A DNA stretch of 51,956 bases from Meiothermus cerbereus DSM 11376 (GTDB taxonomy: Bacteria > Deinococcota > Deinococci > Deinococcales > Thermaceae). Each line of letters starts with the position of its first letter. Position 1 is the first letter of the stretch. The stretch is from contig NZ_JHVI01000026.1 in the NCBI RefSeq assembly GCF_000620065.1, forward strand, positions 1-51,956. The letters are read 5' to 3'. Of the stretch, positions 40,157 to 50,027 are shown piece by piece. A model generated the notes under the pieces. The model was not told where the DNA came from and did no database searches. It saw nothing but the letters and a program-made list of their open reading frames with translations. The position numbers and the translations under genes are program-made.

Positions 40157-41261
40157 TCATCCGGAGGGCTCCTGCTTCTCCTCTGCCTGTCTTCCTGGAA
40201 CCTTTGCCGCAAGGTACAAAACTGCCCCCAGCGCACCCACCGCCAGCGCGGTGGCCTGCAGGGTCCCAGCAGCGCCCAGGGCGCTCGAGAGCGGCCTAAC
40301 CAGCCCCAGCACTGGCAGCACCCCCAGCGCCAGGCTCACGTTCACCAGGCTGAAGACCCGCCCCAGAAACGGCCTGGGCACTGTCGCCTGCAACAGCGAC
40401 TGGGTGGCCACCCCGGAGATGTCGAAGAGGATGCCGCTCAAGAAGAAAACCGCCAGAAGCATGGGAAACGTGGGGAAAGTCGCGCCCAGCAGCATGGGGG
40501 CGGCCAGCAGGGTGTTGAGCAAGACCACCAGCGGAAGGCTGGGAATGCCTTTCTTTAGAGCCCCCAGCATAGCCACCCCCACCACGCCCCCCAGGGTGAG
40601 GCTGGTATACAAGAGCCCCAGGCCCGCGGCCCCGATCTGGGCCACCTCCAGCGAGATGGGCACCATCACGATCTCCACCACCCGCCAGAACAAAGAGGTG
40701 AGCATGGAAAGTAGCAAGATGGTCAGCACTGTTTTGCGGATCACGGCAAAACGCATTCCCTCGGCGGCCTCGGCCCAGAGGGTGCTGCCCCAGCGAGGCG
40801 GTGACCTTGCCCAAAACCATCCGCAGGGCGTTGGCAGAGACCGGGGCCTCTTTGGGCACCAGGGAGGGTACCACCGCGGCCATGGTGGGGCTGACCAGGC
40901 CCTCTACGGTCTGGATCAGGAAGACCAGCGGGTAGACCAGCAAAGGCTCCAGGAGCACCAGCACCAGGCTGGCCGAGAGCAGCGCGCTCAGCAGGTAACC
41001 CCCCACCAGGGTTTGACGCCGATCCCAGCGATCGGCCAGGGCGCCGGTGAAGGGCTGGATGAGGAGCCTCGAGGCCACCCGCACCGCCCAGATCCCCGCC
41101 AGCGAGGCCACCGACCCGGTGGCGCTGAAAACCGCCACACTCAGGGCCAGTACCGTGAACTGACTGCCCAGGCTGGAGAGGGCCGTGGCCCAGAGCAGCC
41201 GGGCGTACGGGGGGTGCTCCAGCGCGGGGTAGTGGCGGCGCAGCCAGGCCAGCAAGGGCAT
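40157..41261 (-). pseudogene. MFS transporter, frameshifted
   Basis: Two minus-strand frames together give a complete major facilitator protein of about 365 aa with about 11-12 helices. The first part (from ATG 41261, with AAGGAGG upstream) ends near VLGKVTASLG; the second resumes with STLWAEAAEGMRFAVI and runs to 40157. The break is at a run of four G (40788-40791 on the opposite strand); deleting one G restores the frame. Motif A remains: GALADRWDRRQTLVGG. It starts 11 nt after the ABC exporter gene, so it belongs to the same unit and may have exported the same product or provided immunity. Either a real pseudogene or a sequencing error. Confidence 0.75.
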
Positions 41262-41272
41262 TCCCGCCTCCT

Positions 41273-43060
41273 TCAGCCGGGCTGGTAGAGTCGAGCCTGC
41301 AAGCCCCAGAGCTCGGCATAGGTTCCGCCTCGCTCGAGCAGGGCCCGGTGGGTTCCCTCCTCCACCAGGCGGCCCTCCCGCAGCACCAGAATCCGGTCGG
41401 CCATCTGCACCGAGGCCAGCCGGTGGGTGATGAGCAGCACCGTCTTGCCCTGGGCCAGCTCTGCAAAGCGTCCGTAGAGGTGGGCTTCCTCTTTGGGGTC
41501 GAGGGAGGCGGTGGGCTCGTCGAGGATCAGAAGCTCCGCCTGACGGAAAAAAGCCCGGACAAGGGCGAGCCGCTGCCACTCCCCTAAAGACAGCTCCGTA
41601 CCCCCGAAAGCTTTGGAGAGAAGAGCCTCGGCACCCAGCCGCCGCAGCAGTTCCGAAGCGCCCCCGGCGCGGGCAGCCTCTTCCAAACGCCCAAGGTCAG
41701 ATTGGTGCTCTAAATCCGCAAGGACAATGTTTTCCCGCAGCGTCAGTGCGTAGCGACCAAAGTCCTGGAACACTGCCGCCACCAGGCGCCACCAGGCCTC
41801 CAGGTCTAATTCCCGCAGGTCTACCCCATCCACCAAAATACGGCCCTGGCTGGGGTCGTAGAAGCGGAGCAGAAGCTTAACCAGTGTGGTTTTACCGGCC
41901 CCGTTCTCCCCCACAATGGCCAACCGCTCCCCCCGACGCATTACAAAGGAGATCCCCTCCAACGCGCGCCGGCCATCTGGGTAGTTAAACCCCACGTTTT
42001 CAAAGCGAATCTCCTCAAAGCCCCGCACCATTCGGCCTGCGTTTGAAGGGGCCAGCGCAGAGGAGCGGGCCAGGAAGCCCTCGAGCCGTTCGAAGTACAG
42101 AAGGCTCTCGTATAGCATGCCCCCGTCCTGCACCAAGCCGTAGAGGTTTTGCTGCAGGCTCCCCACCGACTGTAACAAGAGCACCAGGCTCCCCAGCCCG
42201 CTCGCGCCCGAGAGGGCCTGACGCAGGCCTAGGTACAGCGCTGCCGCCGTGGCCAGAGCGCTGACAAAAACCAAGCCGCTGGCCCCCAGGGCCTGCCGCC
42301 CGCGCGCGCGGCGGAGCTCTTGGTATAGCCGCCCAAAAGCCTCGAGATAGCGCCCACGGAAAAAAGGAAGCAGCCCAAACAGGCGCACCTCCTTGGCCGC
42401 CTCGGGGTTGAGCAAAGTCTCGGCATAGTAGCGCATCCTGCGGGCCTCGGGAGCGCTGAAGAGCACCGCCTCCCACACCCCTTTTTGCAACCTGAAGGTC
42501 AGCAGCGCTTGGGGCAGGGTGGCCAGCAGCAACAACAAGGGGAAAACAGGGGCCAACGTCAGGAGCAAGAGCAGCACCCCGGCCACAGCAATACCCCCAC
42601 GAAAGGCATTGCCGAAAAAAACCAACAGATTGAGCGGCTGATAGGGTGCTTGATCGCGCAGCACCTGAAGCTCATCGTAAAAACCAGCGTCCTCAAAGGG
42701 GGTGAGATCGGGCAGGCCGGCTGCTTTCTCCATCAGCAGTAGGTGTACCCGGGCGGTGAGCTTTTCGTTCACCGAACCCTGTAGGTAGGCCACCCAGGGC
42801 ACCAGCAAAAAGTCGAGGGCAAACAGCAAGGCCAGCCCTAAGAGCGGCCCTAGCAACGCAGTTGTAAAGGCGCCGCTGCCCAACCCATAGGCCAAACCGT
42901 CTACCAAAGCCCGCGTCGCGCTTAACACCCCCACCGGTATCAGGCCGCTTGCGGCAAGGAGGCCCACCAAGAGGGTGGCCTCGAGGGGGGCCGCTCGAAA
43001 AACCTGCCGCAGCGCCGGAACGATTTGGCGTAACAGGGAGCGCCTATGAGCCAGTCGCAA
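41273..43060 (-). CDS. ABC exporter, fused permease-ATPase
   Basis: 595 aa. A six-helix exporter domain (about 20-320) and an ATPase domain: Walker A VGENGAGKTT (about 389-398), Q-loop VFQDFGRY, signature LSLGEWQRLALVRA (about 495-508), Walker B LLILDEPTASLD and switch H in ITHR. The signature reads LSLGE in place of LSGGQ; the GEWQR variant is common in exporters of bacteriocins and other modified peptides. No peptidase domain is fused. It overlaps the preceding 183-aa gene by 17 bases, so both are one unit. A peptide substrate is inferred from the neighbours. Confidence 0.82.
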   Translation of the reverse strand: MRLAHRRSLLRQIVPALRQVFRAAPLEATLLVGLLAASGLIPVGVLSATRALVDGLAYGLGSGAFTTALLGPLLGLALLFALDFLLVPWVAYLQGSVNEKLTARVHLLLMEKAAGLPDLTPFEDAGFYDELQVLRDQAPYQPLNLLVFFGNAFRGGIAVAGVLLLLLTLAPVFPLLLLLATLPQALLTFRLQKGVWEAVLFSAPEARRMRYYAETLLNPEAAKEVRLFGLLPFFRGRYLEAFGRLYQELRRARGRQALGASGLVFVSALATAAALYLGLRQALSGASGLGSLVLLLQSVGSLQQNLYGLVQDGGMLYESLLYFERLEGFLARSSALAPSNAGRMVRGFEEIRFENVGFNYPDGRRALEGISFVMRRGERLAIVGENGAGKTTLVKLLLRFYDPSQGRILVDGVDLRELDLEAWWRLVAAVFQDFGRYALTLRENIVLADLEHQSDLGRLEEAARAGGASELLRRLGAEALLSKAFGGTELSLGEWQRLALVRAFFRQAELLILDEPTASLDPKEEAHLYGRFAELAQGKTVLLITHRLASVQMADRILVLREGRLVEEGTHRALLERGGTYAELWGLQARLYQPG

Positions 43061-43595
43061 CCACCTCCCGGTTTGCCTCTCTAGCCCAACGCCCAGGGTT
43101 TATGTAGTTTGAGGCAATATGGGCCCACTCTTCAGAGGTAATCGGGCAAACTTCCTCGACAATATACCTTTTCCGCATGGGCTTTGCGGAGTCGTGACGC
43201 AGGATTGCCTTATGCCCCTCAGGAACCTCTACTATCACGAAAGATTCACCTTCTTCATCCCACTCCCAAATCGGTACCCTGCCTGCCAAGGCATAAAAGG
43301 CACCCCTGTTCTCATCAAGATTTCGAGCATGCATGCTTGACGGACAAAGCCAACAAGACGTGCGGTATTTCCCGCAAGCCACTACCTCGAGGGGTCGAAC
43401 GTAGTAGCGAAACTTGTACACTTCACCAAAGAAGATCAAAGAAGGCTGCTCAAATGGATGAGCAATGTTGCCCCCTTGTGGATCAAGGACGTAGGCAAGT
43501 TCCGAGCTAGGTTCTAGACGAACAACCAGACCAAAATCGTCCCGCACTTCAACCCAACCGTTCAAAGTTCTGAGCTGGTCTCCGACGCTCAGCAC
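43044..43595 (-). CDS. Unknown 183-aa protein in peptide-export unit
   Basis: I do not recognise this family. It starts at GTG 43593-43595, six bases after the stop of a 29-codon ORF, and overlaps the ABC exporter gene by 17 bases. The protein is beta-rich at the N-terminus (GWVEVRDDFGLVVRLEP). A CWLCPSSMHARN segment (C-x2-C, about residues 82-93) could bind metal or form a disulfide. The C-terminal half is charged with several Trp residues (IWEWDEEGESF). No signal peptide or membrane helix. Base composition is lower in GC than the core genes. Its place suggests a processing, immunity or peptide-binding role for an exported peptide. Confidence 0.6.
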   Translation of the reverse strand: MLSVGDQLRTLNGWVEVRDDFGLVVRLEPSSELAYVLDPQGGNIAHPFEQPSLIFFGEVYKFRYYVRPLEVVACGKYRTSCWLCPSSMHARNLDENRGAFYALAGRVPIWEWDEEGESFVIVEVPEGHKAILRHDSAKPMRKRYIVEEVCPITSEEWAHIASNYINPGRWAREANREVVATGS

Positions 43596-43601
43596 CGTGT
43601 C

Positions 43602-43691
43602 CTACGCCAAATGTACCTCCTTCCCTCGGCGAAGAAGGATTGGTTGGTTGTTCTGGTCTTCCCAAATGATCCTGTTGATCCAGTATTTCAT
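43602..43691 (-). CDS. 29-aa ORF, possible peptide precursor or leader
   Basis: ATG 43689-43691, preceded by AAAGGGGG, opens a 29-codon frame: MKYWINRIIWEDQNNQP followed by ILLRRGKEVHLA. It is the first frame after the GGTTAC array on the minus strand and ends six bases before the 183-aa gene. It has no cysteines. It could be the substrate of the exporter, a regulatory leader peptide, or chance; coupling to the next start codon favours translation. Confidence 0.4.
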   Translation of the reverse strand: MKYWINRIIWEDQNNQPILLRRGKEVHLA

Positions 43692-43754
43692 GGCCGTAAA
43701 CCCCCTTTCACTTTTAGCCTGTACTAAAGGCACTTTCACCCTAGCACCCCCCAC

Positions 43755-43827
43755 GTAACCAAACCCCCTCTCAGAATGGTTACGTTCTTAACTCATTTTG
43801 GTTACCTTCCCTCTCATATTGGTTACC
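43755..43827. promoter_or_regulatory. GGTTAC site array, copy 1
   Basis: TGGTTACG at 43777 and TGGTTACC at 43799 and 43820 are direct repeats 22 and 21 bp apart, plus an inverted GTAACC at 43755-43760. Sites two helical turns apart on one face of DNA are typical of cooperative activator binding. The array lies between the plus-strand peptide gene (43850) and the minus-strand unit starting at 43691, where TAGGGT (43738-43743) is a candidate -10 box. Confidence 0.6.
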
Positions 43828-43849: not shown

Positions 43850-43990
43850 ATGCGCAGGGTGAGGTGGTTTTTGTTGTTGCTGATTCTGCTGGCTTTGGGT
43901 TGGAAGGAGTTGGGCTACGCCTGCACCCGCCCCGACTGTGTTCCACCGGGGGTGGTGCGCTCGGGGGAGGCTAGCGGTACTGGGCGCTGA
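43850..43990 (+). CDS. Small secreted two-cysteine peptide, copy 1
   Basis: 46 aa: a basic start (MRRVRW), a hydrophobic core (FLLLLILLALGW), then KELGYA and CTRPDCVPPGVVRSGEASG with Cys at 25 and 30. Cleavage after GYA (Gly at -3, Ala at -1) would release a 22-residue peptide beginning with Cys. AAGGA stands seven bases before the ATG. The second copy differs at only two residues (Leu10 to Ser, Val35 to Ala), so the frame is kept. It may be a pheromone-like signal or a bacteriocin. No known family recognised. Confidence 0.6.
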   Translation: MRRVRWFLLLLILLALGWKELGYACTRPDCVPPGVVRSGEASGTGR

Positions 43991-44010: not shown

Positions 44011-44184
44011 AAAGCGGTGGCGATGCTCAACCACCTTTTGCTTGCGTTACGAGCCTTTCTGAGGTTGGAGCTGTATCGGTTGAAGACGGGAGTGAGCTGG
44101 TATGAGGCCAAGACCGCGATAGTTCGCGACGCCATCCGAACCTACCTGGCTCGTCCTATCTATGAGCTTGTCTCAACTGCGTAA
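44011..44184 (+). pseudogene. IS4/IS701-like transposase C-terminal fragment
   Basis: 57 codons, open from the junction with the direct repeat, ending in TAA: VAMLNHLLLALRAFLRLELY, then TGVSWYEAKTAIVRDAIRTYLARPIYE. This is the helical tail of an IS4-superfamily transposase. No N-terminal part is present. It marks the recombination point where copy 1 of the direct repeat ends. The remaining bases to 44297 hold only a 28-codon minus-strand frame that I could not support as a gene. Confidence 0.7.
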
Positions 44185-44297: not shown

Positions 44298-45068
44298 TTA
44301 GTGGGTTCCCAGCGTGCCTTGTCGCCGCGCGCTGCGGAGCGCACGTCGAAAGAATACAAGCCCCAGCACCAGGTACGCCAGGGCGTTGACCCCCGACAGC
44401 ACCAAGAGGCTCCACTCGGGAACCTGCTCCCGCCCAAGGATGAGGCGCAAGGCACCCACGGAGGGGGTTAGGGGCAGGAGGTAGCCGAGGTCGCCCCAGG
44501 GCCGGGCCAGGGCTTCGAAGCGGATGAGGAAAAGACCCAACAGAGGGAACTGCAAGATGCTGATGAGCTGGCCCAGCCGCTTATAGATCAAAGCCAGACC
44601 GCCTAGCAGAAGCCCCAGCCCCAGCGCGCCCAAGGCCAAGGTCAACAGCGGTAACAGAATGAGCCAATCGAAGTCCAGCCGGGCTCCCGAGACGAGGGTG
44701 ACAGCCAGGAAAAGCGGGATGTTCAAAAGGCCCATCTGCAGCAAGGAGAGTGCAGATCGCGTCAAGACCACACCCAACAGGCCAGGGCGGGTGAGGGCCA
44801 GCTGCTCCAGGATGCCGGACAAAGCCTCCTCTGCCAGGGTGGAGGCGATATGGGAGAGAAGGGAGAGGGCCAAAGTCCAGGCCAGGAGGCTCACCACCAG
44901 GGTCTCCAGGCGATCTCCGAAAAAGGCGGGGCCGGCCAGGTAACGGGCCCCGTAAATAAAGAGGGTGAAGACCATCAGCACGCCCAGAAAGCCCCCAAGT
45001 AATTCCATCGGATAGCGACTAAGAGCCTTCAAGAAGCGCCAGAGCTCTATGTAGACCCACTGGAGCAC
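44298..45068 (-). CDS. ABC-2 type exporter permease
   Basis: 256 aa with six hydrophobic segments in the ABC-2 arrangement: a cytoplasmic start MLQWVYIELWRFLKALSRYP and a final helix in VLSGVNALAYLVLGLVFFRRAL. The middle region LAEEALSGILEQLALTRPGLLGVVLTRS is the coupling segment that contacts the ATPase. It overlaps the ATPase gene by 22 bases. This type of two-protein exporter often gives self-protection against, or release of, peptides. It is the last gene of the unit starting with the 83-aa peptide. Confidence 0.83.
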   Translation of the reverse strand: MLQWVYIELWRFLKALSRYPMELLGGFLGVLMVFTLFIYGARYLAGPAFFGDRLETLVVSLLAWTLALSLLSHIASTLAEEALSGILEQLALTRPGLLGVVLTRSALSLLQMGLLNIPLFLAVTLVSGARLDFDWLILLPLLTLALGALGLGLLLGGLALIYKRLGQLISILQFPLLGLFLIRFEALARPWGDLGYLLPLTPSVGALRLILGREQVPEWSLLVLSGVNALAYLVLGLVFFRRALRSARRQGTLGTH

Positions 45069-46000
45069 GGCTTCCTCCTCTCCCTGAGTACGCGCCAGAA
45101 AAGCCCTGCTAGGGATAGGCTCTCTCGCTCCACCCGGTCAATGGGCAAGGGGTCCAGGACTCTGAGGACCTCCCAAAGGGTTTCTTCACCCACGATCCGA
45201 ACCACCCTTCCCTCCACTTCGGCCCCCAGGGCTTGCAGCCGCCCCAGGCGCAAATCGCCCTCGTCTAGGAGGAGTGCCAGCTCTATGCGGTAGACCGCCC
45301 GTGGGGAGCCTTGCAGCACCTTTTGGGTCTCTCCCTCCAAGGCCACCTCTCCCTCCAGGAGGATGGCCACCCGGTTGGCCACCGCCTCGGCCAGATCGAG
45401 CTGGTGGGTCGTGAGGAGGATCGCCTTGCCGTCTATTCCCAGCTTTAGAAGCCAGGAGCGTATGGCCTCCTGAGCCTCGAGGTCCACCCCCAGGGTGGGT
45501 TCATCCAGGAAGAGAACGGGGGGGTCGTGCACCAGCGCAGCAGCCAGGGCGACCCGCTGCTGCTGGCCTCGAGAGAGGGTGCCTACGGTCTGGTGGGCTT
45601 TATTCTGCAGACCGATCACCTCCAGGAGTTCCAGGCCCCTCCGCCGGGCCTCTTTGGGGGCGACGCCGCGCAGGGTGCCGAAGTAGATGAGGTTCTCCAG
45701 GGCGGAAAGGCGCCAATACAGGTTGCGGTTACCCTCCAGCACCGCTCCCAACCAGGTTCCCTGGCCTTCCCGCAAAAGCTCCACCCTCCCCTCGTCGGGC
45801 TCTACCAAGCCCGCCAAGATTTTGACCAGGGTGGTCTTTCCGGCTCCGTTGGGTCCCAGAAGGGTTAGGATTTCCCCCTGACGGAGTTCCAGGTCGACCC
45901 CCTTCAGGGCCTCGATCCAGCTCTTTCCCTGAGGGTAGCGCTTGCGCAGGCCGCGGGCCCATAGGGCTGGGCTAGGGGAGGACCGTACGCTCGGGTGCAT
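45047..46000 (-). CDS. ABC-2 exporter ATP-binding protein
   Basis: 317 aa. Walker A LGPNGAGKTTL (about 48-58), signature reading LSRGQQQRVALAAAL (LSRGQ in place of LSGGQ, about 142), Walker B VLFLDEPTLGVD and the switch histidine in LTTHQLD. The C-terminal 100 residues form the accessory domain usual in CcmA/DrrA-like ATPases. Seven bases separate it from the M29-like gene. It drives the adjacent permease, probably for a peptide or for resistance to it. Confidence 0.87.
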   Translation of the reverse strand: MHPSVRSSPSPALWARGLRKRYPQGKSWIEALKGVDLELRQGEILTLLGPNGAGKTTLVKILAGLVEPDEGRVELLREGQGTWLGAVLEGNRNLYWRLSALENLIYFGTLRGVAPKEARRRGLELLEVIGLQNKAHQTVGTLSRGQQQRVALAAALVHDPPVLFLDEPTLGVDLEAQEAIRSWLLKLGIDGKAILLTTHQLDLAEAVANRVAILLEGEVALEGETQKVLQGSPRAVYRIELALLLDEGDLRLGRLQALGAEVEGRVVRIVGEETLWEVLRVLDPLPIDRVERESLSLAGLFWRVLRERRKPCSSGST

Positions 46001-46007
46001 AAGCAGC

Positions 46008-46988
46008 TCACGCGACGAGGACGTCCTTCATGCCTGGGCATATGAAATCTATGTGGGCGCCTGTAACCCCGTCACCTACGGCGAAGTGGACACCGCGGGC
46101 GCCCTCATTGAGAACAGAGTTCACGCTCCAGTCGAGTTCCGAAGCCTCTAGACCAGGATTGTTGCTGATTGCCATCTCCACCAACATAAGTTCAAGCTGA
46201 GGATTGGAGAGTTCCGCTATTTCATCTGTTAAATTTGTTCCATCCGAAGATCGTACCTGTTTCACTTGAGAATTCTCAATTGTGACGCTCAGTGGGAATC
46301 TTCCATCCCTGACGAGTCCACCCAACAACTCCCATGCTCTTTTTGGAAGAATAGTGAGTGGCTCGGGCATGATTCTATGGTGTGCAATGGCGACCCCTGG
46401 AACCGTCACTTCGCCATTTACCAAAAAGCCGGGATGGAAGAAATCTTCATTATCTGGGATCATCGCTATTTCGAAGAACATACCTATAGCTTCCCACTCA
46501 CCTGGTAGCAAGCCTGCTTGTGTGCGAGGCAGCATGAGGTCTAATCCTTCCTTAAGGATAACCTCTAGCTCACCGTACATCCCCTTGAAGACAAGGCGCT
46601 TGATGTCACTGTTCTCCAAGACAGAAACCCACCTATTGTTTTCCTTAGTGGCCGCAGCGAAATCTGAAGAGGCAATCAATTTGACTGTATATTTAGCTGC
46701 CTCAAAAGAAGGATCAAAAGCAACCAGAGGCACAATAAGAACTCGGCTACTTTTGAAAAAGCGCTCTAGCTTGAAGAAAGAGAGGCCGTTGCCGGTAGTG
46801 GGCAAGAGAACTATGTTCTTGCGCCGATGTTTTGGTAAGTCGGCAACTTCATCCAGGAGGAAGGCTCCTATAGCGTGACTTTTCAGCCAGGAAGCAATGT
46901 CGATGGAGTCCGTGACTAGAAGGGGTTTAGCAGAGCCGAAAACGTGGGCCAAAGCCTGTTCTAGTTTGACCTTCAATCCTTGTTCCAT
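46008..46988 (-). CDS. M29 aminopeptidase-like protein, shortened
   Basis: 326 aa. The C-terminal half follows aminopeptidase T/M29: a NGEVTVPG strand (Glu193), SVTIENSQVKQVRSSDG, LVEMAISNNPG (Glu271), GVHFAVGDG (His301), and GAHIDFICPG (His312, Asp314). The metal-ligand order and spacing fit. But the stretch between His301 and His312 is about 20 residues shorter than in known M29 enzymes (about 410 aa), so the region expected to hold the catalytic tyrosine is missing. It may trim the 83-aa peptide, or be an inactive peptide-binding version. AGGAGG five bases upstream supports ATG 46988. GC content is lower than in core genes. Confidence 0.5.
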   Translation of the reverse strand: MEQGLKVKLEQALAHVFGSAKPLLVTDSIDIASWLKSHAIGAFLLDEVADLPKHRRKNIVLLPTTGNGLSFFKLERFFKSSRVLIVPLVAFDPSFEAAKYTVKLIASSDFAAATKENNRWVSVLENSDIKRLVFKGMYGELEVILKEGLDLMLPRTQAGLLPGEWEAIGMFFEIAMIPDNEDFFHPGFLVNGEVTVPGVAIAHHRIMPEPLTILPKRAWELLGGLVRDGRFPLSVTIENSQVKQVRSSDGTNLTDEIAELSNPQLELMLVEMAISNNPGLEASELDWSVNSVLNEGARGVHFAVGDGVTGAHIDFICPGMKDVLVA

Positions 46989-47050
46989 CACTGCCTCCTA
47001 GGATGGGACTGCAGCCGCAACACCGCAACAATAGAGCCTTATCTAAATCC

Positions 47051-47302
47051 TTAGATCCCAGCCGTACAAGGGCAGCTCACCAGGGGGGCACGGGGAGAGC
47101 CTACACCATTGGCCTGCGAAAGCCACTTGTAACTGACCGTGTAGCCGTAACCAAAAACGCCCACTATAGGCTTGTTTGAAGGTGCCTCTCCAACACTGCA
47201 AAGTGGATCGGAATAAGGCCTTGAGGTCTTCGTGTGGTGGCCCTCTGCGACGAACCTAAGCAAACGTGGGGCATTTAGCTTGAGCTCCAAAGTTTTCTCC
47301 AT
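47051..47302 (-). CDS. 83-aa cysteine-containing peptide, candidate RiPP precursor
   Basis: The first gene of the minus-strand unit, starting at ATG 47300-47302 with AGAGAGG eight bases upstream. The N-terminal third is charged and helical (MEKTLELKLNAPRLLRFVAEG), like a leader. The C-terminal part is Gly-, Tyr- and Ser-rich (VGVFGYGYTVSYKWL) and ends PLVSCPCTAGI with a CPC pair. No signal peptide. It is followed by an M29-like protein and an ABC-2 exporter, an arrangement that suggests a ribosomally made, processed and exported peptide. No known precursor family was recognised. Confidence 0.5.
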   Translation of the reverse strand: MEKTLELKLNAPRLLRFVAEGHHTKTSRPYSDPLCSVGEAPSNKPIVGVFGYGYTVSYKWLSQANGVGSPRAPLVSCPCTAGI

Positions 47303-47364: not shown

Positions 47365-47457
47365 GTAACCAAACCCCCTCTCAGAATGGTTACGTTCTTA
47401 ACTCATTTTGGTTACCTTCCCTCTCATATTGGTTACCTTTTGACGGTTTTGGTTACC
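47365..47457. promoter_or_regulatory. GGTTAC site array, copy 2
   Basis: An inverted GTAACC at 47365-47370 is followed by TGGTTACG at 47387 and TGGTTACC at 47409, 47430 and 47450. Spacing is 22, 21 and 20 bp. BTAD/SARP activators bind direct repeats near -35 positions, and such a regulator is encoded next door, so these are its likely sites. They lie between divergent peptide units. Confidence 0.6.
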
Positions 47458-47479
47458 TTGCCCTTGCAAGGATGGAGGT

Positions 47480-47620
47480 ATGCGCAGGGTGAGATGGTTT
47501 TTGTTGTCGCTGATTCTGCTGGCTTTGGGTTGGAAGGAGTTGGGCTACGCCTGCACCCGCCCCGACTGTGTTCCACCGGGGGCGGTGCGCTCGGGGGAGG
47601 CTAGCGGTACTGGGCGCTGA
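47480..47620 (+). CDS. Small secreted two-cysteine peptide, copy 2
   Basis: 46 aa, differing from copy 1 only at Ser10 and Ala35. Same signal-like segment and predicted mature 22-mer (CTRPDCVPPGAVRSGEASG, then TGR). AAGGA is seven bases upstream of the ATG. Its last 20 bases overlap, tail to tail, the end of the TPR/BTAD regulator gene. A short exported peptide beside a TPR regulator recalls the peptide/receptor gene pairs of RRNPP quorum-sensing systems, although the regulator family here is different. Confidence 0.6.
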   Translation: MRRVRWFLLSLILLALGWKELGYACTRPDCVPPGAVRSGEASGTGR

Positions 47621-49205
47621 GCCGCCGCACCCAGGCCCGCACCGCAGGATGGCGGGGGTCTTGCGGGGACAGGCGATGTAGGAGGGCCTCCCAGAGGGTA
47701 AGGTCGTCCGGGATTTGCTGGGCCAGGCGGTAGAGCAGCTCGAGGTCGGGGTGTTGCAGCACGGCCTCTTTGAGCTGCTCTTCGATGCGGTGGCGCAAAA
47801 GCTCGATGCCCGGGGCCTGGCTTCTGGGCAGGAGGGGGCCCTGGTAGAGGTTGAGGGCCTCGGAGAGCCGGTTTTGTTCCAGGGCTTCCTGGAGCTTGAG
47901 GAAGTCGGCCCCGATGGGGCTAAGGAGCCGGTAGGGGCGGCTCTGCACTTCCAGGCCCTGCTGGCGCAGGCGGCAGAGCTCGCTCCGGAGGGCCTGGGGG
48001 TTGGGCGTGGGGTAGAGCGCCTGGGCCAGCTTCTCCCCTTCGATCCCCTCAGGGTGGGCCAGCAGCAGGGTGATGAGTTCCAGGCTGCGGGGCCTTAGGG
48101 CAGGGTAGCCCTGGAGTTGGGCTTTGCCCAGGGTTTGCAGGTAGGGGGCGGCCTGGGTAAGCGGGAGTTCCGCCGGCAGGAAGAGGGCCCGGGCCTCGGG
48201 GCGGAGGGCCTGGGCCAGGCGGCGGTAGGGCTCGGGAAGGGGCTCCCCGTTGAGTGCACAGAGGTGGGCCACCGCCCGCAGGGCCTCCTCCGCCCCCTCG
48301 GCTTCCAGGGTGGGGAGGCTCTCCTTCAGAAGGGGGCGGGCCTCGGGCGCTGGGTAGCGGTAGAGCCCTTCGGCCAGCAAGAGCAGGGCCTGGGGCAGGG
48401 CTTGGCTGGAAGGCTGGGCTTTGGCCGCCCGCAGTCGGCGGGCCACGAGCGTCTGTTGGGAGGAATGGCCTTTGCAGAGCCGCACCAGGAGGGGCAGGTC
48501 GTAGGCCAGCAGGTGGGGGTTTGGGTTATGTTCCCAGAGGGTCTGCAGCAGTTCCGGGCTGGCCTCCCCCTGCATCCCCTGCAGCAGCAGGCTGAGCCAG
48601 AGGGCGTAGTAGCGCACCCCCGGGGACGGATGGGCCAGCAGCGGGGGGAGGGTCTGCGCCAGCGCAGCGAGGGGCTCCTCTCCGGCGTAGGCCAGCAGGG
48701 TGAGCTCCTCCAGGCGGTAGTAGGGCTGCCCGGGGGCCAGGAGGGCGGCCAGGCTGGCGTAGGAAAGAGCCTCCGCAAAGCGCCCCAGTCCCCGCAGGGT
48801 GTGGGCCAGGGCATAGGCCAGGCGAGCCTGCTCCTCGGCGGGGGCGCCCTGGGCTTGTAGCTGCTGGAAGGCTTCTCGCAGGGCCAGCAGGCCATCGGCG
48901 GGCGGGAGCGAGAGGCCCAGGTGGTAGAGCGTCAGGGGGGTCTGGGCCGCCTGGGCGGCGGCCAGGGCCAGGCGGCGGTAGGCGGCGTGGTCGCCCTGCC
49001 GGAAGGCGGCGAAGCCCAGGAGGGCCAGGCGTTCGGCGCTTTCTGTCTCCTCCCGCGGCGGCCAGGCCTCCAGCAGGGCTGCGGCCTCGGCAGGCTTTCC
49101 CAGGGCCAGCAGGGCCAGCGCGGCGGTCTTGGGCTCGCCCTGCTGCTGGGCCAGGGCCAGGGCCTCGGCGTAGTGGCCCCGATGGTAGAGGGCCAGGGCG
49201 TCCAT
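47601..49205 (-). CDS. TPR regulator with C-terminal winged helix and BTAD-like domain
   Basis: 534 aa. Residues 1 to about 340 are tandem TPR-like helical hairpins (ALYHRGHYAEALALAQQQGE; KTAALALLALGKPAEAAALLEAW; RFAEALSYASLAALL). About 366-430 is an OmpR/SARP-like winged helix (LRPRSLELITLLLAHPEGI... LRSELCRLRQQGLEV...YRLLSP). About 432-490 is BTAD-like (DFLKLQEALEQNRLSEALNLYQGPLLP), with a short helical end. In Streptomyces SARPs the DNA-binding domain is N-terminal; here it follows the TPR domain. The start is fixed by TATACT ending six bases before ATG 49205. It is convergent with, and overlaps, the small peptide gene. Confidence 0.8.
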   Translation of the reverse strand: MDALALYHRGHYAEALALAQQQGEPKTAALALLALGKPAEAAALLEAWPPREETESAERLALLGFAAFRQGDHAAYRRLALAAAQAAQTPLTLYHLGLSLPPADGLLALREAFQQLQAQGAPAEEQARLAYALAHTLRGLGRFAEALSYASLAALLAPGQPYYRLEELTLLAYAGEEPLAALAQTLPPLLAHPSPGVRYYALWLSLLLQGMQGEASPELLQTLWEHNPNPHLLAYDLPLLVRLCKGHSSQQTLVARRLRAAKAQPSSQALPQALLLLAEGLYRYPAPEARPLLKESLPTLEAEGAEEALRAVAHLCALNGEPLPEPYRRLAQALRPEARALFLPAELPLTQAAPYLQTLGKAQLQGYPALRPRSLELITLLLAHPEGIEGEKLAQALYPTPNPQALRSELCRLRQQGLEVQSRPYRLLSPIGADFLKLQEALEQNRLSEALNLYQGPLLPRSQAPGIELLRHRIEEQLKEAVLQHPDLELLYRLAQQIPDDLTLWEALLHRLSPQDPRHPAVRAWVRRLSAQYR

Positions 49206-49362: not shown

Positions 49363-49632
49363 ATGAAACACCCCGTGGTGCAACAAGCCGTACAGCTAGG
49401 GGTCAAAGGGCGCCTGGTGCTACCCGCTGGGGTGCGTAGGGTTTTACGGCTGCGGGAGGGGGATCGTCTGCTGTTGCGGCTCTGGGACGATGGGGTGATC
49501 GAGCTGGTCAAGGCGGAGGAAGTTGTGCTGGGAAGCAAGGGTCTTTTGCAACGCCTCTACCCTGCTTTGAAGGAAAAAGCGCTGGCTCAAGAGCTGATCC
49601 AGGAACGGCGCAGGGAGGCCCGGCAGGAATGA
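49363..49632 (+). CDS. AbrB-type (VapB-like) antitoxin
   Basis: 89 aa. Residues about 12-55 form a SpoVT/AbrB swapped-hairpin DNA-binding domain: LGVKGRLVLPAGVRRVLRLREGDRLLLRLWDDGVIELV. The C-terminal helix (about 60-89, rich in Lys, Glu and Arg) would wrap the toxin. ATG 49363 follows a TACGAT box by six bases, so the message is leaderless; a longer frame would start inside the regulator's upstream region. It overlaps the PIN toxin gene by four bases (ATGA). Confidence 0.85.
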   Translation: MKHPVVQQAVQLGVKGRLVLPAGVRRVLRLREGDRLLLRLWDDGVIELVKAEEVVLGSKGLLQRLYPALKEKALAQELIQERRREARQE

Positions 49633-50027
49633 GCGTGGTGCTGGATGCCTCGGCCTTGCTGGCCTACCTCAACCAGGAGGCGGGGGCCGAGGAAGTCGCT
49701 CGGCAGATGGTTGGAGGCGGCTTTATTAGCGCCGTCAATCTGGCCGAGGTTTACAGCAAGGTGACCGAGTGGGGCCAGGACGCGCACCTGCTGGAGCAGG
49801 CCCTGGTGCGGCAGGGTTTGCTGGGGGGTGTGTTGGAGGTGGTGCCCTTCGGCCCTGAAGACGTTCACCTCGTGGCAACGCTACGACCCCTGACCAAAGC
49901 CCAGGGGCTATCCCTGGGGGATCGGGTCTGTCTGGCCTTGGCTATGCGGCTGAAACTGCCAGCCATCACCACCGACAGCGCATGGAACAACCTGGAGGCA
50001 GGAGTTGAGGTGCGGGTCGTGCGTTAG
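49629..50027 (+). CDS. vapC: PIN-domain ribonuclease toxin (VapC)
   Basis: 132 aa. The four acidic PIN positions are present: D6 (VVLDASALLAYL), E40 (NLAEVYSK), D98 (LSLGDRVCLALA) and D116 (ITTDSAWNN). VapC toxins cut RNA, often tRNA or rRNA, when released from the antitoxin. It is paired with the AbrB-type gene by a four-base overlap. Its end overlaps by four bases the convergent comM fragment, showing that the module was inserted next to or into that degraded gene. Confidence 0.88.
   Translation: MSVVLDASALLAYLNQEAGAEEVARQMVGGGFISAVNLAEVYSKVTEWGQDAHLLEQALVRQGLLGGVLEVVPFGPEDVHLVATLRPLTKAQGLSLGDRVCLALAMRLKLPAITTDSAWNNLEAGVEVRVVR

Follow-up and report, generated by a model that had tools for sequence, protein, structure and literature searches.

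We analysed a stretch of 51,956 nt from Meiothermus cerbereus DSM 11376 (contig NZ_JHVI01000026.1 of assembly GCF_000620065.1, forward strand), which is referred to as the window. It contains two arrays of GGTTAC repeats, each lying between a gene for a 46-aa peptide and an operon (unit 1 and unit 2, respectively), and one of the two peptide genes overlaps the gene of a 534-aa regulator. This region is probably a peptide-pheromone quorum-sensing switch of the Thermaceae with the two operons as its targets. A preliminary description of the same DNA had singled out unit 2 and its array; the peptide gene and the regulator, which form the centre of the system proposed here, were absent from it.

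Repeat arrays, peptide gene and regulator

The following elements belong to the putative switch (TPR, tetratricopeptide repeat; SARP, Streptomyces antibiotic regulatory protein; wHTH, winged helix-turn-helix):

47601 to 49205, minus strand: 534-aa regulator, predicted TPR superhelix with a C-terminal SARP-type wHTH/BTAD module; the 3' end overlaps the peptide gene
47480 to 47620, plus strand: peptide gene copy 1, hydrophobic leader and C-x4-C-x-P-P, putative autoinducer precursor
47468 to 47473, plus strand: -10-like AAGGAT, 6 nt upstream of the peptide ATG, putative leaderless promoter
47365 to 47456, no strand: GGTTAC array 1, GTAACC followed by four GGTTAC
43850 to 43990, plus strand: peptide gene copy 2, 46 aa with ACTRPDCVPPG, no intact regulator adjoining
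43755 to 43826, no strand: GGTTAC array 2, GTAACC followed by GGTTAC at 43778, 43800 and 43821, flanked by peptide copy 2 and unit 2, putative bidirectional operator
43738 to 43743, minus strand: TAGGGT, putative -10 of unit 2, lying 11 nt past the outermost GGTTAC

The array noticed in the preliminary description is real, as TNNTGGTTACNTT has five matches in the window against 0.02 expected; TGGTTAC has 12 against 3.4 expected. Genome-wide (3.03 Mb, 54 contigs) a two-repeat pattern gave seven matches, five in the two window arrays and two single, compared with two for the reversed control pattern, and repeat arrays of such structure were found only at the two places in the window. The array duplicates are identical at 264 of 290 positions including one 20-nt gap, which leaves six substitutions outside the gap, and array 1 has an extra repeat. 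The duplication of the promoter region had been recognised before, but the duplicate reaches further and also holds the 46-aa gene on the plus strand (43850-43990 and 47480-47620) together with the 3' end of the gene for the regulator. In both arrays a -10-like motif stands beside the outermost repeat. This architecture supports the earlier suggestion that the two units may be co-regulated.

The geometry around the -10 was surveyed in 16 arrays from Meiothermus and Calidithermus. On the cargo side, i.e. that of the operon, the outermost GGTTAC is followed by [T/G]GnTA with the TA 17 nt from the start of GGTTAC in 14 of the 16 arrays. On the peptide side TAnnnT stands at 17 nt in ten arrays and at 37 nt in two arrays with an altered last repeat; the rest are the two window copies with AAGGAT and two arrays without a peptide gene. 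Repeats are spaced by 20-22 nt in Meiothermus and by 10-11 or 19 nt in Thermus, and their orientation is mirrored between the two sides. The direct repeats of SARP operators are described as standing 11 or 22 bp apart, with 8 bp between the last of them and the -10 (PMC10936776); the spacings of 20-22 nt and 10-11 nt fit these repeat distances, and the gap from GGTTAC to the -10 is 11 nt. The peptide ATG 6 nt after the -10 suggests a leaderless layout; leaderless genes with a -10 of TANNNT were described in Deinococcus-Thermus (PMC12340547).

Arrays are also kept without an adjacent peptide gene, namely at the approximately 215-codon gene described below (L047, genome G018) and at a RiPP-like gene (L051, genome G004; RiPP, ribosomally synthesised and post-translationally modified peptide). 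These cases are in keeping with targets controlled in trans, a role that is also proposed for array 2 of the window. G018 contains four arrays (L046, L047, L048); the regulator is full-length at one of them and a remnant at two, and the fourth lacks a peptide gene.

The two near-identical peptide copies start with a basic, hydrophobic leader resembling a signal peptide, which is followed by ACTRPDCVPPG. The tail-to-tail overlap of copy 1 with the regulator gene is a layout that recurs in relatives. At a threshold of E<1e-4 the peptide was matched 58 times in 29 of 111 Deinococcota genomes, the set in which the regulator and the 183-aa family of unit 2 were also counted. Among the matches listed, on which all pairing counts including those of the long regulators rest, 41 of the 58 peptides are convergent with a regulator at a gap of -8 to 173 nt, and 36 of the 46 long regulators have a peptide. 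In Meiothermus the peptides carry ACTRPDC, ACARPDC or ACTHPDC and xPP, in Thermus ACWDPNCVPP, ACWSPDCFPP, GCFRSECMPPGH, ACLDLGCWPPRG or QCLAPHCPPP, and in a metagenome-assembled genome of the Trueperaceae ACKSPDCLPP. The residues C, C, P and P are invariant in all 14 aligned rows and are present in the Trueperaceae peptide too. The leaders vary, and the shortest versions stop right after C-x4-C-x-P-P. A six-frame scan of 972,929 bases, at loci picked for the regulator and partly overlapping (e.g. L111 and L221), revealed 81 C....C.PP motifs; a hydrophobic leader precedes 49 of them, each of which is this peptide.

On a 15.5-kb contig (L052, G007:C186) the module of peptide, regulator and 215-codon gene is found twice, 7.6 kb apart. 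Second copies of peptide and array without an intact regulator occur in Thermus beside other cassettes (L221, L109, L226, L225; MFS, QueC-like).

The regulator of the window has no Pfam domain above its cut-off and, by sequence, no meaningful match in the PDB, RRNPPA receptor chains included. Its AlphaFold model reached a pLDDT (predicted local distance difference test) of 90 from 14 sequences and predicts TPR helices up to about residue 345, followed by a winged helix and six helices. The modelled TPR part is closest to pheromone receptors, with Rap (Z 21.1, root-mean-square deviation (rmsd) 4.0, 306 residues) ahead of NprR-NprX (Z 19.6, rmsd 4.0, 302 residues) and AimR (Z 18.6, rmsd 4.2, 309 residues). 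As judged from the model, this resemblance is that of a shared fold; it is not specific and no proof of peptide binding.

The C-terminal half aligned with wHTH and BTAD (SARP-type) proteins of the same genome in hhalign (probability 96.7, E 4e-10, 157 columns), in contrast to the N-terminal half, which served as control (probability 2.6). The Pfam BTAD model gives a weak hit in the right place, 15.8 bits against a cut-off of 22.1. Phage and plasmid records contain only the C-terminal module among the matches listed; this module is also found in GAF-type regulators of Actinobacteria, and related ones give weak Trans_reg_C matches. The non-actinobacterial genome G000 encodes seven BTAD (SARP-type) proteins at or above the Pfam cut-off (L242-L248).

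Unit 2, unit 1 and the cargo of other arrays

Unit 2 comprises the following open reading frames (ORFs):

43602 to 43691, minus strand: 29-aa ORF, N-terminal portion of the approximately 215-codon gene, ended by an in-frame TAG
43044 to 43595, minus strand: 183-aa ORF, main portion of that gene, C-x6-C-x2-C, without a match in Pfam, NCBIfam or PDB
41273 to 43060, minus strand: ABC exporter, membrane and ATPase domains on one chain, intact
40157 to 41262, minus strand: MFS transporter remnant, about 41 codons lost and a frame change

The first three ORFs lie where the preliminary description had placed them, and it had rightly called the exporter fused, with the signature LSLGEWQR, and the 183-aa protein unrecognised. 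The exporter frame is intact over 595 codons. The 29-aa and 183-aa ORFs are 6 nt apart, the latter overlaps the exporter by 17 nt, and 10 nt separate the exporter from the MFS gene. In the 183-aa protein the C-x2-C is formed by C81 and C84, and C74 is a third invariant cysteine.

The 29-aa stretch had been listed as an ORF of its own. Seven places in relatives were compared (L052 has two near-identical copies on one contig, of which the comparison shows one). In four of them (L047, L057, L052, L060) this stretch and the 183-aa part form a single open frame of about 215 codons, the junction being frame-shifted in the other three (L053, L061, L062) and interrupted by the TAG in the window. As read from these frames, the two ORFs are one gene split by an in-frame stop. 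Between the close relatives G018 and G005, where the frame is open, the first 32 codons show a synonymous difference (pS) of 0.71 and a nonsynonymous difference (pN) of 0.149, i.e. purifying selection; between the window and G018 constraint is not evident in these codons (pS 0.056, pN 0.080), and the 183-codon part gives pS 0.136 and pN 0.026. The 29-aa ORF as a precursor was rejected in view of the in-frame fusion in the relatives and the selection on it as an N-terminal part. The MFS gene was rightly described as changing frame, but more than a point frameshift has occurred, as the stretch corresponding to residues 178-218 in an intact relative is missing. With a gene split by a stop and an MFS gene that has suffered a deletion and a frame change beside an intact exporter, unit 2 is partly decayed here; as judged from its genes it is a cassette in decay and not a cluster around a RiPP precursor.

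For the 183-aa protein nothing was found in Pfam, NCBIfam, the PDB sequences or, by tblastn, a plasmid collection, and a relaxed Pfam threshold (E up to 10) yielded nothing beyond weak, unrelated matches. Its AlphaFold model is poor (pLDDT 43.8, six sequences). A likeness to FecR was not supported: PF04773 gave no match at the gene in six genomes including G000, and FecR is not among the Pfam matches up to an E of 10. The family was matched in 14 of the 111 genomes. All nine examined Thermaceae copies with a 5' region (six fragmentary places, L051, L059, L014, L011, L056 and L015, are excluded) have three to five repeats upstream against 0.19 expected, which speaks against a family occurring mainly outside peptide clusters, the refuting case named in the preliminary description. 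The exception are the two most distant homologues, from another family of the order, which keep the exporter as neighbour and lack the array. Because of these, the 183-aa gene and the exporter may be regarded as the basic pair and the array as their Thermaceae context.

Unit 1 and the end of the duplicate are composed as follows:

47051 to 47302, minus strand: RiPP-like small protein, kept in relatives
46008 to 46988, minus strand: 326/327-aa partner without a family match
44298 to 46000, minus strand: ABC-2 type ATPase and permease
44011 to 44184, plus strand: transposase-like 3' remnant, seen by eye, marks the end of the duplicate

The 83-aa and approximately 327-aa proteins at 46008-47302 have no family match and are conserved jointly in relatives; they are possibly a new RiPP-like pair. 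At 49365-50027 an AbrB-like small protein is followed by a PIN-domain-like protein (by eye, toxin-antitoxin type). The AbrB-like stretch recurs directly after the array at L047, where peptide and regulator are absent.

The cargo opposite the peptide gene varies by genome between radical-SAM, LanM-like and RiPP-like proteins and exporters. Ten cargo proteins were scanned with Pfam and eight with NCBIfam; the labels are class-level, and the NCBIfam matches lie mostly under the curated cut-offs. The RiPP-like pair is the cargo in four relatives (L058, L051, L054, L046), radical SAM/SPASM enzymes were found at L048, L055 (with a PqqD protein) and L061, a LanM-like N-terminus adjoining a Cys-rich 78-aa ORF at L050 and a QueC-like protein at L075. 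The first cargo gene at L056 (9454-9861) encodes a secreted-looking, Cys- and Gly-rich protein of 136 aa without a Pfam match.

The proposed switch and its alternatives

According to our proposal the short plus-strand gene would encode a precursor with a cleavable-looking leader, and the end carrying C-x4-C-x-P-P, which may form a disulfide ring, would be secreted, cleaved off and act as the signal. After re-import it would be bound by the TPR superhelix of the regulator, whose C-terminal SARP-type domain would occupy the GGTTAC repeats and bring RNA polymerase to the weak promoters that flank the array. This would lead to positive feedback through a leaderless mRNA on the side of the peptide gene and to expression of the cargo operon on the other side. 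The operon driven by array 1 would be the RiPP-like unit (47302-44298). Array 2 is a duplicate that lacks its own regulator; controlled in trans, it would drive the 215-codon gene, the ABC exporter and the MFS gene. That the regulator reads the arrays is suggested by its SARP-type domain, which matches the SARP-like layout of the operators; this is the strongest single argument for that step. We also consider it rather likely that this is a Deinococcota-specific kind of peptide quorum sensing with a cysteine-pair pheromone, a TPR-SARP receptor, a bidirectional array with an exchangeable cassette slot and a regulon extended in trans. The slot would take up cassettes for peptide antibiotics, export and resistance, and duplicated or regulator-less arrays would have widened the regulon.

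Several observations weigh against the proposed switch. The full TAnnnT is found on the cargo side in only seven of the 16 arrays, and the promoter of unit 1 itself deviates. The distance from GGTTAC to the -10 is 11 nt compared with the 8 bp described for SARP operators, and becomes 8-9 nt only when a longer repeat is assumed. Among the matches listed, 17 of the 58 peptides have no adjoining regulator and ten of the 46 long regulators no called peptide. A clear peptide motif was not seen beside five long regulators (G030:C23, G045:C12, G047:C6, L110, L112), and L110 and L112 have no motif with a leader in the six-frame scan. Two further peptide-less regulators (G023, G027:C82) lie at or near contig ends, one peptide-less regulator has a transposase-like frame in the place of the peptide, one has the variant ACNNPQCVSPG, and the regulator of G037 has a weak peptide match only (E 0.004; QCLAPHCPPL). 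Unrelated TPR proteins score alike (MalT domain III Z 20.3, APPBP2 20.0, TTC7B 19.4), and the top Foldseek matches of the regulator are eukaryotic TPR proteins with low TM-score. Finally, the hosts have an outer membrane, which the peptide would need to cross and pass again on its return.

The outer membrane, an anatomy that would look identical, and the observation that no importer gene was noticed adjoining the peptide-regulator pair in the window would also suit a local activator circuit, in which the producing cell would sense the peptide in its own cytoplasm, as a measure of how much precursor has built up, of secretion stress or of growth state, and no signal would pass between cells. 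We regard this as unlikely, since the conserved residues (C, C, P, P) lie in the end after the leader, the leaders are variable and the shortest peptides stop at that end, which is what recognition of the released end would predict. It is very unlikely that the peptide itself serves as an antimicrobial or as a small protein of the envelope while the TPR-SARP regulator responds to something else. A secreted-looking cysteine-pair peptide next to peptide-biosynthesis and export genes is in line with such a role, but the peptide stays constant while the cargo differs between genomes, and its association is with the regulator (41 of 58, as counted above) and not with any exporter or maturase.

Two further explanations concern unit 2, the first of which covers unit 2 alone and is compatible with the proposed switch for unit 1. 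It is possible, though doubtful, that array 2 is an inert by-product of the segmental duplication and unit 2 a dying pseudo-operon without meaningful regulation. The split 215-codon gene, the deletion in the MFS gene, the first 32 codons without a sign of constraint and the transposase-like remnant at the end of the duplicate point in this direction. The intact exporter frame, the four repeats and well-placed TAGGGT that array 2 retains, the excess of pS over pN in the 183-codon part and the retention of array and gene in relatives argue against it. Following the preliminary description, unit 2 would instead be a peptide cluster with the 29-aa ORF as precursor and the 183-aa protein as its partner. 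A short ORF beside an ABC exporter invites this view, but it is extremely improbable, as both ORFs are a single frame in four of seven relative places and purifying selection acts on the N-terminal portion within it. A role of unit 2 in peptide maturation also finds no support in its gene content, as neither the 183-aa protein nor its full-length relatives match a known maturase in Pfam or NCBIfam and no separate precursor gene was found in unit 2. Altogether, the observations of the preliminary description are partly confirmed and its interpretation is partly supported.

Comparison with known systems

No description of the peptide/TPR-SARP system was found in searches of open-licence papers. 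A survey of thermophiles from 2018 reports no complete peptide-based quorum sensing except for one case in Thermotoga (PMC6022435). If the proposed switch is true, the Thermus lineage would possess a peptide signalling system, the regulator would be a naturally occurring fusion between a Rap/NprR-like sensor fold and an activator domain of Streptomyces antibiotic clusters, and the array together with a C-x4-C-x-PP gene would be a marker for hidden biosynthetic clusters in Thermus and Meiothermus.

With the RRNPPA receptors (Rap, NprR, AimR, PlcR) the regulator shares the predicted TPR superhelix, a likeness which is not specific, and the adjacent short propeptide gene (36 of 46 long regulators, among the matches listed), whose product would be secreted by virtue of its leader. 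An N-terminal Xre-type HTH is typical of PlcR, Rgg, NprR, PrgX and AimR. In contrast, the model of the window regulator starts with TPR helices and has its DNA-binding module, of SARP type, at the C-terminus, and no RRNPPA chain was matched at the sequence level in the PDB search. By its modelled domain architecture the regulator is thus not a member of the RRNPPA family. Domain III of MalT has a similar TPR sensor fold (Z 20.3, rmsd 4.5, 310 residues); MalT responds to maltotriose and has a LuxR-type output.

With SARP activators such as AfsR and PimR the regulator has in common the wHTH (ODB) and BTAD module as aligned by hhalign. Direct-repeat operators with one- or two-turn spacing beside a weak -10 are likewise described for SARPs, and AfsR also carries TPRs (PMC10936776, PMC5930380). 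Unlike in SARPs, the module of the window regulator is not N-terminal but C-terminal (residues ~350-534 of 534), no nucleotide-binding domain was identified in this regulator, it is paired with a secreted-looking peptide, and its putative repeats are also inverted and would serve two promoters.

TprA/PhrA and TprA2/PhrA2 are systems of Streptococcus pneumoniae (PMC5436883). There a TPR regulator and a short peptide gene lie on opposite strands near transporters and a lanthipeptide cluster, and the regulator controls both the peptide gene and that cluster (PMC5436883). TprA is a repressor of the RRNPP family from Firmicutes which is relieved by the peptide (PMC5436883), whereas the window system has a C-terminal SARP output that would activate, a Cys-pair peptide and Deinococcota as hosts. 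On the best reading the circuit of the window closely resembles TprA/PhrA in its layout and may work like the RRNPP systems.

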